NCBI GenBank assembly: GCA_938006335.1
Contig: CALLMF010000003.1
Coordinates: forward strand, 1 to 64,000
DNA length: 64,000 bases
Direction: 5' to 3'
Origin: an uncultured Granulosicoccaceae bacterium
Lineage (GTDB): Bacteria > Pseudomonadota > Gammaproteobacteria > Granulosicoccales > Granulosicoccaceae
Both the position numbers and the translations under genes were made by a program. Positions 55,381 to 64,000 of the stretch are shown piece by piece. The notes beneath the pieces were generated by a model. It searched no databases. It saw only the letters and a program-made list of their open reading frames with translations, and had not been told where the DNA came from. Every line of letters starts with the position of its first letter. Positions within the stretch are counted from its first letter, which is position 1.

Positions 55381-57084
55381 CTACGCGGCCTGCGCATAGT
55401 CCCGATCAAACGGCTCGTTGGCGATCAAATGCAGCATGTTCTTGGCGCGTGAACACCCGACGTAGAAGTCTGCATTACCGAACACGGCGCGCGTGCCTGG
55501 CTTTGGCAAGTCGATCATCACTAGCGCATCCGCCTCCAAGCCCTTGAAGGATCGGATGGTCGTCAGCAAAACGCCTTTGCCGGCCTGCCAATCAGAGACA
55601 CTCGAAGTCAGTGGGACGCCTGCGATTTTCGAGACCTCCCCAAGACAACCGCGATCTGTCTTCCACGGCGACAGGATGGCGATCTGCTGCGGCCGGATCT
55701 TCTCGTCGGACAGCCAGGCGCCGACAAGCTTCTCGACGTGCCGTCGGCGCAACGCCTCGTCCCCGGCCACGTCCACCGTCACGGCAAGTCCTTCCGGGGC
55801 CTGCGGAGACACATCGCCTTTGATCGACACGATGTTGGCTGACCAAGTTGCGATGGAGCGTGTGTTGCGGCAATTGGTCGGTAGATCCAATCGAAGTGGA
55901 AGCCAGGCTTCAAGTGCTTTAGCGCCGTCGGCTTCAAAGAGATCCTGATGCTCGTCGTAGAACGCGTACACAGGTGCATCGTCAGCCACCAGCATGGCAA
56001 GCGCAGCCCACCAATCAGCGCGGAAGTCCTGCCCCTCATCGACGATCAGGGCGTCTATCTCGAGCCCTGCGGCTTCCGCGTTCTCGACCAGCAGCTCGGC
56101 GGTCTCGCGCTTCCAGAAGTCATCGGCGTCCTCGGGAGCGACTGGCACCTCGAACACGTCGCCACCCTTGCGCGTAACCGACTCGCATAGGTCATGAAAG
56201 GTATGGATCTCGAACGGATGGCGATCGTCTGCCGTCGCCTCGCGCAACCATGCCGCGAGCGAACGGTTGTAGCAGAGCATCATCGTGCGCTTGCCCTCTG
56301 CCGCGAATCGACGGGCCTGCTGTACGGCGAGCATCGTCTTGCCCGAACCTGCTACACCCCAGATACGAGCACGCGACTGCGAACGTGAATACGCAAGGAA
56401 GCGCGCTTGCTCATCGGTCATGCGATAAAGCACGGCGTCCTCCGTCTGAATACGCGCTGCGAGCGAAGGCACCAGTTGCATGCTCGGTAGCATCGCGTCA
56501 ATTACTTTCCTGAAGCTGACAATGCGCGCGTTGGGAGTCAGCTGGCGGCTCCAGCTCTTCAACGCGCCTTCAACAAAATCGCCTATGGAGCGTAGCGCTG
56601 TGCCATCACACAGAATGGCGGGATCGACGTTGGACGGCAGGGTGCCCTCTGTGCGTGTGGACGGTAGGACCACCGCGTAGCCGTAGGTGAAGCCGAGTTG
56701 TTGCCGCGGCATACCGAGGTTGTCTGCGACACGCCGGACAATGGTGTGCATATTGCCACGCGCCTGCTCGAACGGATCCTTGATGGAATGACGTACCCCG
56801 TGACGATCGACCGAGGTCCAGCTACCATCGCCATCGACGGACACGCCACCGCCCTTGACCTCAAGTACGAGCATGCCCTTACCCGGCCACAGGATCACCG
56901 CATCCGCCTCACCTTCGACGAGGCGGGAGACACGCCCGTTTTTGCCGCGATCGCGGCGAATCGTTTCCCAGGAATGCAGGATGATGCAGTCCTCCGGCAA
57001 ATCGCGCATCAGCGATGCGATGACCTCGCGCTCCGAGTCCGGCTGGATCGAGGCAACGTCGATGACGGGCAGAAGTCGGGGCAT
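55381..57084 (-). CDS. NERD-domain UvrD-like helicase
   Basis: About 567 residues from ATG at 57084, where the typical NERD N-terminus begins (MPRLLPVIDVASIQPDSERE); an in-frame GTG at 57171 is possible. Residues ~10-130 are the nuclease-related NERD domain, with Glu/Asp in GEADAVILWPGKG and the LEVKGGG core of PD-(D/E)xK nucleases. The superfamily 1 helicase follows: Walker A GVAGSGKTM, motif II IVDEGQDF, and CSRAKNMLHL near the end. It likely cuts or unwinds DNA and is common in anti-phage or DNA repair settings. It lies 150 bases after an HNH nuclease gene on the same strand. Confidence 0.87.
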   Translation of the reverse strand: MPRLLPVIDVASIQPDSEREVIASLMRDLPEDCIILHSWETIRRDRGKNGRVSRLVEGEADAVILWPGKGMLVLEVKGGGVSVDGDGSWTSVDRHGVRHSIKDPFEQARGNMHTIVRRVADNLGMPRQQLGFTYGYAVVLPSTRTEGTLPSNVDPAILCDGTALRSIGDFVEGALKSWSRQLTPNARIVSFRKVIDAMLPSMQLVPSLAARIQTEDAVLYRMTDEQARFLAYSRSQSRARIWGVAGSGKTMLAVQQARRFAAEGKRTMMLCYNRSLAAWLREATADDRHPFEIHTFHDLCESVTRKGGDVFEVPVAPEDADDFWKRETAELLVENAEAAGLEIDALIVDEGQDFRADWWAALAMLVADDAPVYAFYDEHQDLFEADGAKALEAWLPLRLDLPTNCRNTRSIATWSANIVSIKGDVSPQAPEGLAVTVDVAGDEALRRRHVEKLVGAWLSDEKIRPQQIAILSPWKTDRGCLGEVSKIAGVPLTSSVSDWQAGKGVLLTTIRSFKGLEADALVMIDLPKPGTRAVFGNADFYVGCSRAKNMLHLIANEPFDRDYAQAA

Positions 57085-57236
57085 GACGTGCGTCCATGTT
57101 GCTCGCTGAGGGCGGTACGAATCAGCATGTTCGACCACGATTGCATGGCTAACGGCCTGCCCGTCTGACACTGCACCGCTCGACGCCGGTATTCAGAACC
57201 TCTTCACGGCCCGGTCACACGGGTTTCGGCCCTGGT

Positions 57237-58046
57237 TCACGCAGCGCGAACGTATATGTCGTCGTTAGCCTCTGACAGACATCTCAGCGCATCGAGTACG
57301 TCGGTGTTGATCCCGGCATCGCTTCCGACAGCGTCGAGAATCGTGGACCGTTCCGTATCGTTGACCGCCGCGTCAAACGCATGCAACAACGCCGCCGTGG
57401 CGCGGTACGAGGGCCAGATGGACTCGAGCCACTCTCGGTAGTGCAACTCGGTCGCCACCGACTCCAGCGCAAGTAGCTTGTCCGACGCAAAGGCGGACGG
57501 ATTATCGAGCCCGCGTGAAGCGTAGGTACCCGGCTCACGACGTCTTAGCCACTGAGCATGCTGTTTGAGTGCACAACGCATGTAGTAGGTGTCGTCGCGG
57601 GTGTGACGGGGCAAGCCGCGGAGTTCACGGATACGCCAATCGAGTGCGACCAGTGAATTCCCGATCGCGCGATTGAACCACCAGTCCGACGCCACGATGA
57701 CCTCGCGGCGACGCAGATCGCACAGCAACTGATCGTCCGGCAGACCGAATACCCTCACATAGTCCCTCGTGATCCAGCCGTTGTGAAAGAAGCACAGGTT
57801 GTCGCTTCCGTTGTCCCTCTTCTTGATGTTGAACGTCGACGACACGCACGCGCCATTGTCCAGCGTGGACGTACCGCCCCGTGCACTCGGCTTCAGGTGA
57901 TCTGCCCAGTCGTTATCCCACTCTGGCGTCAGGCCCTGATCGGGGATCCACAGCGAGACGCCACTGAAGGCGCAGGTGGCGCGATCCCGACCGAAGATGG
58001 CTGACTTCTGGTTGTTGGTGAAATTGGTTCGCTTGCGCGAGGGCAT
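57237..58046 (-). CDS. HNH endonuclease-like protein
   Basis: 269 residues. The N-terminal 90 residues contain a CxxSG motif (RATCAFSG), DHLKPSARGGTSTLDNGA and NIKKRDNG, which fit the HNH fold (His of DH, Asn of DNG, N-K near the end). The remaining ~170 residues are helical and unfamiliar. It is a restriction-like nuclease candidate, immediately upstream of the NERD-UvrD gene, and may be cotranscribed with it. Confidence 0.72.
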   Translation of the reverse strand: MPSRKRTNFTNNQKSAIFGRDRATCAFSGVSLWIPDQGLTPEWDNDWADHLKPSARGGTSTLDNGACVSSTFNIKKRDNGSDNLCFFHNGWITRDYVRVFGLPDDQLLCDLRRREVIVASDWWFNRAIGNSLVALDWRIRELRGLPRHTRDDTYYMRCALKQHAQWLRRREPGTYASRGLDNPSAFASDKLLALESVATELHYREWLESIWPSYRATAALLHAFDAAVNDTERSTILDAVGSDAGINTDVLDALRCLSEANDDIYVRAA

Positions 58047-59181: not shown

Positions 59182-60480
59182 TCACGACGATGCTGGATTC
59201 GCGTCGTTCAGAAGAAACTCGATCAACAACTCCTCATGCACCTGCCGGCGCACGGTGTCGAAACGCTCGCGCAGCATCGGATCCCACGGAGTGTCACCGC
59301 ACGCGGCGCCATCCGTCGGTAGCTCGATGCCTTGGTCGGCGGCGTAGTTGAGCGCGGCGTTGTAGTCGGCGGCACCCATGCGCCAGGGTTTGCAGCCGAG
59401 CGCGTGCAGGCGGCGGCAGATGGCGATGCCTGCCACGTCGAAGTCTCCGTGGTGTCGCACCGTCACGCCATGCGCGAGCAGTGCACTCACCAGGCGCATC
59501 ACCGCCGTCGCGGGATTGCCGTTGGTCGCGATGACCGCGAACGGGGTATCGCGTTCCGCGGCCGCCTCGACCAGCCGCGGGTTCTCGACCAGCAGCACGG
59601 CATCGCGTGGCGCGATCGTCACGGGATGTCGCTCCAGCGCGAATGTCGTCAGGTGCAGCGGCACGCCAGCCGCAGTCGCGGCCTGCGCCAACACCCCGAG
59701 GGTACTGTCCGGTGCAAGTGGTAGACGCCAGCCGAGCACGGGCGCGGACACGCGATCGTGAATCACGCCGGCAGCGCTCCAGATCGCGCGCCCATCGCGG
59801 GGTTCGAGGCTCCGAGCGCCCTTGAACCAGAGGGCGCGACGCGCGCAACGTTCCAACAGGACACCGTCATCGAGGGCGTGTGCCGAGCCGAACAGCTGTA
59901 CGGCAAGCTCCGTGCGCGCGAGGGGTTCCTCGGCCTCTGTCAAGGCGTCCAGCAAGCGGCGCGTGTTCGTCGTGGCCTCCCTGAGAGAGTCGTGATCCGA
60001 CCGCGCGAGTTGCCCGGACTGGAACAACCAGGACATCCACTCCATCGCCCAGGGTTCATGCCAGGTGGCGCACGTACGTTCGATGGCGGCGCGCGTCTCG
60101 GCACGCGACTGTCGCGCTTGGCGGCGCGCTTCGCTGTCGAGAGAACGCGGTGCGCCGAGTCGGGTCAACGCGTCGTCGAGATCCGTCCCGACCGAGTGCG
60201 CGATCAGGGCGCACTCTAGTGCGTCCAGATCGATCGTGGCGCCGATGGGTGCACCCAGCAGCGATGTCAGTGACAACCGTCCGTGCTCGCGCAGCGGTGG
60301 CACGCGCAAGCGGCCGCGTCGGTCGAGCCCGTAGCGATCGAGCCGGGCACGCACGGCCTGCCACAACGGCTGCACGTCCGCGTGCAACAGCGAGGACGGT
60401 GGAGATGCGGACGAGTCGTTCAGAACAACGACCCCTGCTCGTGCGACGGCAGGGATGCATCTGTGGATGCCTGCACGCAC
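59182..60480 (-). CDS. jetD: Wadjet type III JetD-like protein (TIGR02679/DUF2399)
   Basis: About 432 residues. The start is uncertain: GTG at 60480 overlaps the end of jetB by 61 bases with GGAGG upstream. The C-terminal half has the DUF2399 Toprim-like motifs: VLLVENPRLVEAA (catalytic Glu) and VRHHGDFDVAGIAI (Asp pair), plus a conserved WRMGAADYNAAL. In Wadjet systems JetD is the nuclease that cuts plasmid DNA looped by the SMC complex. Last gene of the operon. Confidence 0.87.
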   Translation of the reverse strand: MRAGIHRCIPAVARAGVVVLNDSSASPPSSLLHADVQPLWQAVRARLDRYGLDRRGRLRVPPLREHGRLSLTSLLGAPIGATIDLDALECALIAHSVGTDLDDALTRLGAPRSLDSEARRQARQSRAETRAAIERTCATWHEPWAMEWMSWLFQSGQLARSDHDSLREATTNTRRLLDALTEAEEPLARTELAVQLFGSAHALDDGVLLERCARRALWFKGARSLEPRDGRAIWSAAGVIHDRVSAPVLGWRLPLAPDSTLGVLAQAATAAGVPLHLTTFALERHPVTIAPRDAVLLVENPRLVEAAAERDTPFAVIATNGNPATAVMRLVSALLAHGVTVRHHGDFDVAGIAICRRLHALGCKPWRMGAADYNAALNYAADQGIELPTDGAACGDTPWDPMLRERFDTVRRQVHEELLIEFLLNDANPASS

Positions 60481-61580
60481 TCATCGCCATCGACCTCCGA
60501 CTCGATCACCGCATACCGCGCCGCAGCCGGCAAGCTGCGCACGCGAGTGTCGTCCACCTGCAACAGACGCAGGTCACCGAGCAGCCTGATCACGCGGTCG
60601 GCCAGTGCCGGTACGCTGGCCGTCTGACTCTTCGACCAGTGACGCGCATGTCGCTCGATCATCGTGGCCAGCATTGTCTCCATGTCGGCACGATCGACCT
60701 CGCCGCCGCGCTCGATCAGCGCGTCCAGCAGCAGTAGAGCGGCGTGGTTCAGGGTGTTTGCGGCGGGAAACGCGATGTCGGTGAGCCGATCCTCGGGATC
60801 GATCGCGACGACGCCCTCGGCACGGGCCTCGAGCTGCAGGCCGAACATGTCGTCGAGCATGGCGCGCTCCTCGCCGATCCGCCGACGTAGTTCGGACCAC
60901 TCGGGCTCGGTCACGTCGACGGCGTACAGCACGGGGTCCTCGACCAGCCGGGCGCGTAGCCACTGACGAGTGTTGGCGCGTGCGGCACTGCGGTCGATCA
61001 GATCAGACGGCGTTTCCGCGCGGGACAGTGCCGGTAGGGGCAGCAGCGCCACGCGATCCGGATCGAACTCAAGGACCGCATCGGCATCGGCGTCGGTCTC
61101 GTAGCGCCCGACCTTCTCGTGCAGTTCGGCGGCGAGACCGGTGTGGATGAGCCACTTCAGTACGACGACGAAAGCGCGACGATCGGCCGGCTCGCTACCG
61201 AGCGTGATCTCGGCATCGGCCGCGGCGCTGTGCACGTCACCCACCAGATCGCGCAGACTGATCACGCGCGGACCGGCAGCGACCGCGGCGAGGATCAGGG
61301 TCAGCAGCACGAGCTCGCGCTGCGTCATCGGGCGCGGCGTGCTGCCGACCGTATTCAGGGTGCGTCGATGTGCCAGGCTTGTCGTCTTGTACAAGCGTGC
61401 GGTGCGACTGGAGACCTGCAGGCGGTAGCCGAGGCGTTGGGTGAACAGGCGGTCGAGCGCCACCTCGTGCTTGCGCACCGCGGCGAAGGCCTCGGCGTCG
61501 CGCTCGGCGCACAGCAGCGGCGTCTGCAGCATCCGGCGTGCCGCGGCCTGCAGGGCCGGCTTGTCGGCGTCAGATGGCAT
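60420..61580 (-). CDS. jetB: Wadjet type III JetB-like protein (TIGR02678/DUF2398)
   Basis: About 386 residues from ATG at 61580, which overlaps the end of jetA by 11 bases. Family stretches include LGYRLQVSSRTARLYKT, LVEDPVLYAVDVTEPEWSEL and LQLEARAEGVVAIDPEDRLT. The protein corresponds to the kite-type partner (MukE-like) of the SMC complex. It is the third gene of the operon visible here. Confidence 0.88.
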   Translation of the reverse strand: MPSDADKPALQAAARRMLQTPLLCAERDAEAFAAVRKHEVALDRLFTQRLGYRLQVSSRTARLYKTTSLAHRRTLNTVGSTPRPMTQRELVLLTLILAAVAAGPRVISLRDLVGDVHSAAADAEITLGSEPADRRAFVVVLKWLIHTGLAAELHEKVGRYETDADADAVLEFDPDRVALLPLPALSRAETPSDLIDRSAARANTRQWLRARLVEDPVLYAVDVTEPEWSELRRRIGEERAMLDDMFGLQLEARAEGVVAIDPEDRLTDIAFPAANTLNHAALLLLDALIERGGEVDRADMETMLATMIERHARHWSKSQTASVPALADRVIRLLGDLRLLQVDDTRVRSLPAAARYAVIESEVDGDECVQASTDASLPSHEQGSLF

Positions 61581-63090
61581 GCAGGCGCAGCTCGGCATCA
61601 AGCAAGGTCAGCACGCCCTCCGGGCATTCGAGACGCACCGATGCGTCTGTACGACGGGTGACCTCGCAGGCGAGGTCGCGGTCCTCGGCGCGGCGGATCG
61701 GATCGTTCGGCACACGCCGCGCGCCGGACGCGGACAGCAGCATGCGAATGCGACGCAGGGCCTCGGTGGAGAGCTGTACGTCGATCAGTCGGCCATCCGC
61801 CTCGGCCGCAGCCAGCAGTTCCTCCGCGACTTTCGCATCGGCAAGGCGCATCGCTTCGCGCTCGCGACGTAGCACCTCGCGCTCCATTGCGCGATCCCGG
61901 ACCGGGCTGGCACTGCCGCGCTGCCGTCGCTCGCCGCGTTCGCGCAGCGTGACCGGTACCGCCGCGCGCGGCGCCGTTGCCCACGATGTGGTCGACGCCA
62001 CCGGGTCCTCGGCATCCCGCGACGGCAGACCGAGATGACGCGCACCGTGCAAGCCAAAGGCGGCATTCAGCAGCGCGTGCGCACTGTCCGCGTCGTCTGC
62101 CTGATCGAGCCAGCCGGCGAGCCTGACGAAATCGATACGTCGCGAGGCGCTGCCGCTACCAGCGCGCGAAAGGCGCGTGAGGTTCCCGGTCAGCGTGCGT
62201 ACCGCAGCCATCGCCTGACGAGTCAGCGCCTCCAGGCGCGAGGGGGCGTCGTGTTCCGCCTCGAACCAGCGCTGCAGGTGCCACCAGTCGGCGGAGTCGG
62301 TGCCGGCGATAGCGCGCACCTTGACCGTGCCGGCCATGCCCTGAGCCTCCACTCGTGCCGCGAGGCCGACACGCACACGCGCGCCGATCGCCTCGACGTG
62401 TGGCTCCAGCGCTCGCAGCGCGCGTGCGATCGGTCGGGTCATGCGCTCGATCTCGATCAGCTGCTCGGACACGTAGCCGACCAGGACCTCGGCGAAGAAC
62501 GCGATCTCCTCGGGGTCGAGGTCGTAGCGGCTCTGCCACTGGTTGATCGAGGCGAAGAACTGCGTGAGCTCATCACTGAACGAGGCGTGCGGATCGAACA
62601 CGCCGCGCACCGCATCGATCAGGTCGTTGACCGCGACACGCTCGAGCCCCTGCTCGACGAGGTCGAACAGGCGTTGCAGTGCGCGCAACACGTCGCGCAG
62701 GCGACCGGCCTGCACGTCGCCGATCTCGTCGACCCGCCCGAGCACGCCTTCGACCACGGCATGCACCTCCTGCCCGGCCCGCGTGATCAGATACCGATGG
62801 CGACGTCGGTAGTAGTCGTCGAGGCTGGCCGGGTTCCCGACCGTGGTGGACGCGGCGAGGTTGCCCCACGTGCGCAGGCTTTCCAGCCGATCGGGCACGA
62901 CGTCCGGGTCGATGTCAACGCCATCTGCGCGTAGGCGCGCGACCACGTCGTCGGGCGAGAACTCGGCGAAGAAGGTGTCGGCAAATATGCCAAGGATGGC
63001 CCGATAGTCGCGCCATTCCTCGCCGCCGACATAGCGGAACAGCAGACGCGCACGCGCCGCTTTGTCCGGTGCAGACGCCTGCTCGTTCAC
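61570..63090 (-). CDS. jetA: Wadjet type III JetA-like protein (TIGR02677/DUF2397)
   Basis: About 506 residues from GTG at 63090, whose GTGA overlaps the SMC gene's TGA (63087-63090). The N-terminus RARLLFRYVGGEEWRDYRAI and the segment LDDYYRRRHRYLITRAGQEV are typical. It acts as the kleisin (MukF-like) that bridges the SMC heads. An unusually Arg/Ala-rich helix lies near the C-terminus. Confidence 0.88.
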   Translation of the reverse strand: MNEQASAPDKAARARLLFRYVGGEEWRDYRAILGIFADTFFAEFSPDDVVARLRADGVDIDPDVVPDRLESLRTWGNLAASTTVGNPASLDDYYRRRHRYLITRAGQEVHAVVEGVLGRVDEIGDVQAGRLRDVLRALQRLFDLVEQGLERVAVNDLIDAVRGVFDPHASFSDELTQFFASINQWQSRYDLDPEEIAFFAEVLVGYVSEQLIEIERMTRPIARALRALEPHVEAIGARVRVGLAARVEAQGMAGTVKVRAIAGTDSADWWHLQRWFEAEHDAPSRLEALTRQAMAAVRTLTGNLTRLSRAGSGSASRRIDFVRLAGWLDQADDADSAHALLNAAFGLHGARHLGLPSRDAEDPVASTTSWATAPRAAVPVTLRERGERRQRGSASPVRDRAMEREVLRREREAMRLADAKVAEELLAAAEADGRLIDVQLSTEALRRIRMLLSASGARRVPNDPIRRAEDRDLACEVTRRTDASVRLECPEGVLTLLDAELRLHAI

Positions 63091-64000
63091 GCGGGCATCG
63101 TCAGGGTGTGACCATCCCACTGGCTGTGCTCGAGCAGGATGACACCCGCGGCTTCGTCGCGCACAACCTCGGTGATCGCGAGCGCCGGCACCGTCGCGTG
63201 CGTGCCCCACAGGCGTTCGCTGGTCGCGATGAAATCCAGGTCGAGTTCCACGAGCAGCCCGAACAGCCGGGCGTGGTTGTCTTCGGACACCTTCGCGAAG
63301 GCATCATCAAGCAGCAGGAAGCGCGGCACGCCGACTGGCGGCCCGGCCGCAGACGCGCGTTCCTCCAGCGCATCGCAGCCGGCGGCGAGGGCCGAGAACA
63401 GCGGCAGGTAGGTGACCAACTTCTTCTCGCCTTCTGACAAGGGCGTGCGTCGCGACAGCGGACGCTCGGCGTCGTTGCCGCGACGTAGCAACACGTGCAT
63501 GGTGTGCCAGCCGCGGTAGTCGAGCACGCGGTCGATCAACTCGCGGTAGGGCGACTCGGGTTCCAGCCTGCGCGCCTCGTCCAGTCGCGCAGCGAGGGTC
63601 TCGCGCAGCTCGCGCTCCTCAGCCTCGTTGCGTAAGTCCGGCAGTTTCTCGAGGATGTCGACCATGCGCGAGGTCGCCTCGTCGAGCTCCGGGTCGCGCC
63701 GCCATCGCAGGCGCACGCCGATGCCATGGCTCGTGGTCACACTCGCGAGCCGCTCGTTCATGCGCTCGATCAGGGTCTTCGCTTGCTGCAGCTTGCGCGC
63801 GACGTCGCCCGCGAGCTGACCGTGCAACAGTTCGCGCAGCGCCTGGTCCTGCTTCTGACTGAGCAGCGCCTGCAGCTGTCGAAGTTGCGTGCCGACCTCG
63901 ACCAAGGCATCCGCCAGGCTGAAGCGACCGAGCGGTCCGTTCACCGACAGTGACAACGCAAGGGTGGAATCCGGCTGGTGACTCTCGGCGTCCCACCCGG
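63087..64000 (-). CDS. jetC: Wadjet type III JetC-like SMC ATPase (TIGR02680), C-terminal part
   Basis: The C-terminal ~304 codons of an SMC/SbcC-like ATPase, open at the right edge so the N-terminus lies outside. It shows a coiled-coil segment with EERELRETLAARLDEARRLE, the signature motif LSEGEKKLVTYLPLF and Walker B RFLLLDDAFAKV. It is the motor of the Wadjet complex, extruding loops on small circular DNA. It stands first in this operon, ahead of jetA and jetB; the usual type III order as I know it puts it third. Confidence 0.9.
   Translation of the reverse strand, partial: GWDAESHQPDSTLALSLSVNGPLGRFSLADALVEVGTQLRQLQALLSQKQDQALRELLHGQLAGDVARKLQQAKTLIERMNERLASVTTSHGIGVRLRWRRDPELDEATSRMVDILEKLPDLRNEAEERELRETLAARLDEARRLEPESPYRELIDRVLDYRGWHTMHVLLRRGNDAERPLSRRTPLSEGEKKLVTYLPLFSALAAGCDALEERASAAGPPVGVPRFLLLDDAFAKVSEDNHARLFGLLVELDLDFIATSERLWGTHATVPALAITEVVRDEAAGVILLEHSQWDGHTLTMPA

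Follow-up and report, generated by a model that had tools for sequence, protein, structure and literature searches.

A predicted type II Wadjet operon led by its SMC gene and the lineage of C-first loci to which it belongs

The window analysed here is a stretch of 64,000 bases (contig C3:1-64000) from a contig of 68,626 bases in a draft genome of 3.8 Mb. It carries four tightly packed minus-strand genes which, as the first-pass annotation had claimed, are transcribed in the order C-A-B-D. The first of them crosses the window edge, and two further genes lie downstream of the last. The features are as follows, with window positions unless otherwise indicated:

Contig C3:63087-67202 (= L003:8087-12202), minus strand: jetC, SMC-like ATPase, ATG start, 1371 aa
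63087..64000, minus strand: 3' part of jetC contained in the window, the ATG start lying beyond the window edge
63087..63090, minus strand: 4-base GTGA overlap of the jetC stop with the jetA start
61570..63090, minus strand: jetA, kleisin (DUF2397), GTG start at 63090
61570..61580, minus strand: 11-base overlap of jetA with jetB
60420..61580, minus strand: jetB, KITE protein (DUF2398), ATG start at 61580
59182..60480, minus strand: jetD, Toprim nuclease (DUF3323-DUF2399), start uncertain
57237-58046, downstream of jetD: HNH-like protein as read from the sequence, no library match
55381-57171, downstream of jetD: NERD-helicase, PADLOC RTasNERD-Hel at 164 bits

Extension of the sequence past position 64000 recovers jetC in full and places it first in the operon, because a divergent Opp/Dpp-type ABC permease gene lies directly upstream, 118 bases away. 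A second jetC downstream had been named in advance as a finding that would contradict the proposed rearrangement; a TIGR02680 search detected none in the genome, the sole additional hit being a fragment of 20 bits elsewhere in the assembly, on a different contig. Both the GTGA overlap of jetC with jetA and the 11-base overlap of jetA with jetB are present as first described, the latter spanning 8 bases in six relatives. For jetD, the candidate starts are GTG at 60480, later TTG or GTG codons, and the CTG of a CTGA overlap at the jetB stop. This CTGA occupies the jetB/jetD junction (about 60420-60425), at which jetD of several relatives begins within a GTGA overlap, and at this usual position the window offers no ATG, GTG or TTG start for jetD.

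The four products belong to recognised families. JetC scores 630 bits against TIGR02680 (cut-off 463), JetA 206 bits against TIGR02677 (cut-off 166) and 335 bits against DUF2397, and JetB 130 bits against TIGR02678 (cut-off 125) and 235 bits against DUF2398. JetD, in which DUF3323 is also present, matches DUF2399 at 108 bits and TIGR02679 at 174 bits, the latter under a cut-off of 196 that is a detection threshold and not a type-defining feature. Other JetD models pass, and the low score is therefore read as probable divergence rather than absence of JetD. With this caveat, the earlier matching of four overlapping genes to the four TIGR families holds. The best PADLOC models are JetC2 (883 bits), JetA2 (440 bits), JetB2 (286-289 bits) and JetD2 (291 bits). 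In a sequence search of the PDB, JetC matched the JetC of 9qe0 at E=1.6e-53 and JetA matched its JetA at E=4.9e-19; JetC and JetA chains are the sole clearly related ones there, neither JetB nor JetD finding a significant match. The entries concerned (9qe0 and 9qe1) are titled 'Neobacillus vireti Wadjet-II JetABC'.

These assignments overturn one part of the first-pass annotation, in which TIGR02677-02680 had been attributed to type III Wadjet. At a threshold relaxed to E=10, no match to the type III models JetA3, JetB3 or JetD3 was obtained and JetC3 appeared only at E=2.3, whereas the JetX2 models score 286-883 bits; type III Wadjet proteins in PADLOC bear the suffix 3 (PMC12645576). The closest solved relative, moreover, is titled Wadjet-II. 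A type III identity is accordingly considered very improbable and would require mistaken type labels in both PADLOC and the N. vireti entries, and TIGR02677-02680 are taken as the type II set because of the PADLOC JetX2 models and the Wadjet-II matches in the PDB. Since JetA (DUF2397), JetB (DUF2398), JetC (TIGR02680) and JetD (DUF2399) are encoded together, which is the gene content of Wadjet type II, the operon is, as judged from its sequence, a complete type II Wadjet (JetABCD).

The ATPase site of JetC combines conserved and altered elements. The Walker A motif GINGSGKST (GxNGSGKST) and the signature LSEGEK are intact, and the Walker B motif LLDDAF carries Asp at the usual position of the catalytic Glu. 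This Asp-Asp arrangement occurs in 11/11 C-first loci (those in which jetC leads the operon) and in four A-B-C-D sisters, with Glu in 61 sampled JetCs. In the D-loop, all 11 C-first JetCs carry Ser, whereas the 60 others with a readable motif carry Asp (60/60). Together, the Walker B Asp-Asp and the D-loop Ser may slow the ATPase cycle or change its gating.

JetD retains the Toprim Glu E299 and the DxD residues D346/D348, which do not vary across two alignments (23 and 21 sequences); a small number of remoter JetD sequences, not part of these alignments, deviate from the Toprim motif. Its AlphaFold2 model (pLDDT 90.5) aligns with the topoisomerase VI A subunit (1d3y; Z 15.0, 4.7 A over 240), MksG (8b7f; Z 13.5, 8.0 A over 260) and JetD (7til; Z 11.4, 10.2 A over 297). 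Less confidence attaches to the model of JetA (pLDDT 76, pTM 0.42), whose helical core is MukF-like (7nyw_C; Z 13.3, 2.9 A over 162) and also aligns with the JetA chains of 9qe0/9qe1, which head the structure comparison. Intact catalytic residues, together with four open, full-length frames and retained overlaps, argue against an operon that has decayed or is silent in its host. That reading draws on the unclear start codon of jetD and the TIGR02679 score under cut-off, and is given a small probability.

The arrangement of the genes was compared across 80 loci encoding more than jetC alone, a sample biased to Actinomycetota and to the relatives of the window, so that its counts are not population frequencies: 48 loci are A-B-C-D, 16 A-B-C, 10 C-A-B-D, five D-A-B-C and one C-A. 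In the A-B-C class, D is absent, unrecognised or past the end of the stretch, and the C-A locus lies at a contig end. A-B-C-D is therefore the common order, as the first-pass annotation had stated, and C-A-B-D is not the ordinary one. The annotated loci on plasmids of Streptomyces, Cupriavidus, Alicyclobacillus and Pseudonocardia all show A-B-C-D. That order is typical of type II without strictly defining it, variants with D-A-B-C and A-B-C being known as well, and the operon described here departs from it. Among the papers of the literature collection searched, judged by titles and abstracts, none was found to describe gene order within Wadjet types.

The 11 C-first loci comprise the window, five from the same family, two from Pseudonocardia, one from a Pseudonocardiaceae MAG, one from Geodermatophilus, and L147 of the Pseudonocardia-centred sample, in which roughly 1 kb of additional sequence lies between B and D. 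A tree of JetC from 81 loci places all C-first rows on one side of a single branch (SH-aLRT 100), nested among A-B-C-D loci, and they again form one clade in the JetA and JetD trees (SH-aLRT 100 each). These trees are quick searches with some long branches, midpoint-rooted for drawing only, and they resolve the unity of the C-first clade more securely than the position of its nearest A-B-C-D sisters. A contig of Candidatus Poriferisocius (L008) also belongs to this clade; neither A nor B precedes its C, within which the contig ends. The grouping of all C-first loci in a single clade by three proteins is explained by one ancestral rearrangement. The proposal of a rearranged variant thus stands insofar as the order differs from the usual one, but the variant is not confined to this genome and is common to a monophyletic lineage.

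The same evidence bears on the idea that C-A-B-D is a local oddity, produced by an assembly artefact or a recent inversion in this genome. Although the wider family is usually A-B-C-D, the C-first order recurs in 11 loci from separate genomes of two phyla with the overlaps conserved, and the finished genome of Pseudonocardia dioxanivorans CB1190 (L006) has C-A-B-D too, which leaves this idea with a negligible probability. The lineage with a single ancestral rearrangement is found in the gammaproteobacterial family of the window and in some Actinomycetota (Pseudonocardia, Geodermatophilus), a distribution that makes horizontal transfer of the C-first operon likely. The class of the host was read from RpoB, the assembly containing no 16S gene: this protein matches RpoB chains of the E. 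coli kind, those of Pseudomonas and Xanthomonas among them, at 2060-2200 bits, against about 1750 bits and below for the next groups, and on this single protein the host is probably a gammaproteobacterium. Members of the clade are rare: a JetA profile built for it detected no additional ones when run on 395 further Actinomycetota genomes and 368 further genomes of the host's class, and a TIGR02680 gene over cut-off is present in 6/47 other genomes of the host's family, five of these six being C-first. The idea that the PADLOC model PDLC00553 represents the C-first clade was abandoned, since it gives higher scores to A-B-C-D JetCs.

Nine of the 11 C-first loci share a 4-base NTGA overlap between the jetC stop and the jetA start, and in the other two jetA begins 4 bases past the stop. 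Coupled synthesis had been read from the overlaps in the window; the overlaps themselves are confirmed, and their conservation suggests that translation of the SMC and kleisin genes may be coupled. Since the published N. vireti complex has a JetC:JetB:JetA stoichiometry of 2:1:1 in each half (PMC12647877), it may be speculated that the first place of jetC could help to supply the most abundant subunit.

The preferred reading, held with high confidence, is that of a complete, SMC-first type II Wadjet, belonging to one lineage with a single ancestral rearrangement and probably operating by the ordinary Wadjet mechanism as expected from homology. According to this mechanism, JetC (the SMC motor), JetA (the kleisin) and JetB (the KITE protein) would form a loop-extruding complex that reels in DNA; once a small circle has been fully extruded, the Toprim domain of JetD would cut it, leading to removal of the plasmid. 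Complex formation, extrusion, cleavage and an anti-plasmid role are thus most likely, by analogy with related systems. The presence of a Wadjet system is not in itself proof of activity, because Cupriavidus necator H16 from which a predicted type III Wadjet had been deleted showed no change in electroporation or plasmid stability (PMC12645576). The Walker B Asp and D-loop Ser of JetC could also mean weak hydrolysis, a point counted against the preferred reading, as is the missing jetD start at the usual junction.

According to an alternative reading of the same residues, the job of the C-first lineage would have changed, with the altered ATPase site of JetC yielding a slow or regulatory SMC complex with a target other than small plasmids. 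The D-loop Ser, universal in the clade and absent from the 60 other readable JetC sequences, favours this possibility. However, Walker A, the signature and all Toprim residues are intact, the gene content is unchanged, and the Walker B Asp-Asp is common to the four A-B-C-D sister loci, so that a change of job appears improbable, marginally more so than a decayed or silent operon. A tentative and rather doubtful proposal, although less so than either of these, is that the C-first loci represent a functionally distinct Wadjet-II subtype, in which an ATPase retuned by Asp-Asp and the D-loop Ser, and SMC-first, kleisin-coupled translation that sets assembly, would lead to different extrusion or cleavage.

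The type II Wadjet of N. vireti LMG 21834 (9qe0, 9qe1) provides the nearest structural reference. Its JetC and JetA are homologous to those of the window and its JetC is equally 1371 aa long, although the two systems are distant in sequence; the comparison covered the JetC and JetA sequences. Type II loci with A-B-C-D order, such as those of Streptomyces (L054), Cupriavidus (L055), Alicyclobacillus (L056) and a Pseudonocardia plasmid (L058), encode the same families (TIGR02677/02678/02680/02679) but differ in that their JetC is at most about 30% identical to that of the window, with Asp in the D-loop and mostly Asp-Glu in Walker B. The C-A-B-D loci of P. dioxanivorans (L006), Geodermatophilus chilensis (L004) and the same family (L047-L051) share the order, the clade, and the Walker B and D-loop motifs, with NTGA coupling in most; their JetC is 39-47% identical to that of the window and their flanking genes are different. 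MksBEFG/Wadjet type I of C. glutamicum and P. aeruginosa fills the same four roles, and the JetD fold predicted here resembles both MksG and JetD; its proteins belong to different sequence families, and its operon order mksFEBG corresponds to A-B-C-D (PMC10123090).

The novelty lies in the lineage, which combines a single rearrangement and a diagnostic D-loop change with occurrence in two phyla and constitutes a modest but real variant of a known system. It gives a Wadjet-II clade defined by two independent features, gene order and the D-loop change, and present in two phyla. The natural variation of its JetC, a predicted loop-extruding SMC, in the D-loop and Walker B offers a comparison for the control of extrusion and nuclease activation by ATP hydrolysis. 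Gene-order rules in detection tools may need to allow for C-A-B-D and D-A-B-C.

Past the NERD-helicase and HNH-like genes downstream of jetD lies a sugar-type ABC transporter operon, as read from translations, and the segment from 55.4 to 67.2 kb, with a transporter locus on either side, resembles a small inserted defence island. A comparison of the flanks of C-first operons from different genomes revealed no conserved accessory gene, the exceptions being two almost identical neighbours in Pseudonocardia and a single weak match.

Several other arrangements emerged from the sampled loci. Five D-A-B-C loci of the Pseudonocardia-centred sample (L104, L106, L108, L109 and L110) group together in the JetC tree with an SH-aLRT of 97, and D-A-B-C is a second rearranged order of type II Wadjet. 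A-B-C without a recognised adjoining jetD was observed at L114, L115, L118, L124, L126, L128 and L139, and likewise at L140, L142, L145, L148, L152, L154 and L155; at these type II loci jetD may be absent, unrecognised or located elsewhere. Four further matches (L009, L010, L011 and L012) cover the N-terminal ATPase stretch of JetC alone, over 37-132 aa at 64-81% identity. Those of L009, L010 and L012 end within their contigs without the rest of the system and that of L011 is cut by the end of the fetched stretch; these fragments are possibly truncated genes or members of another SMC-like family.
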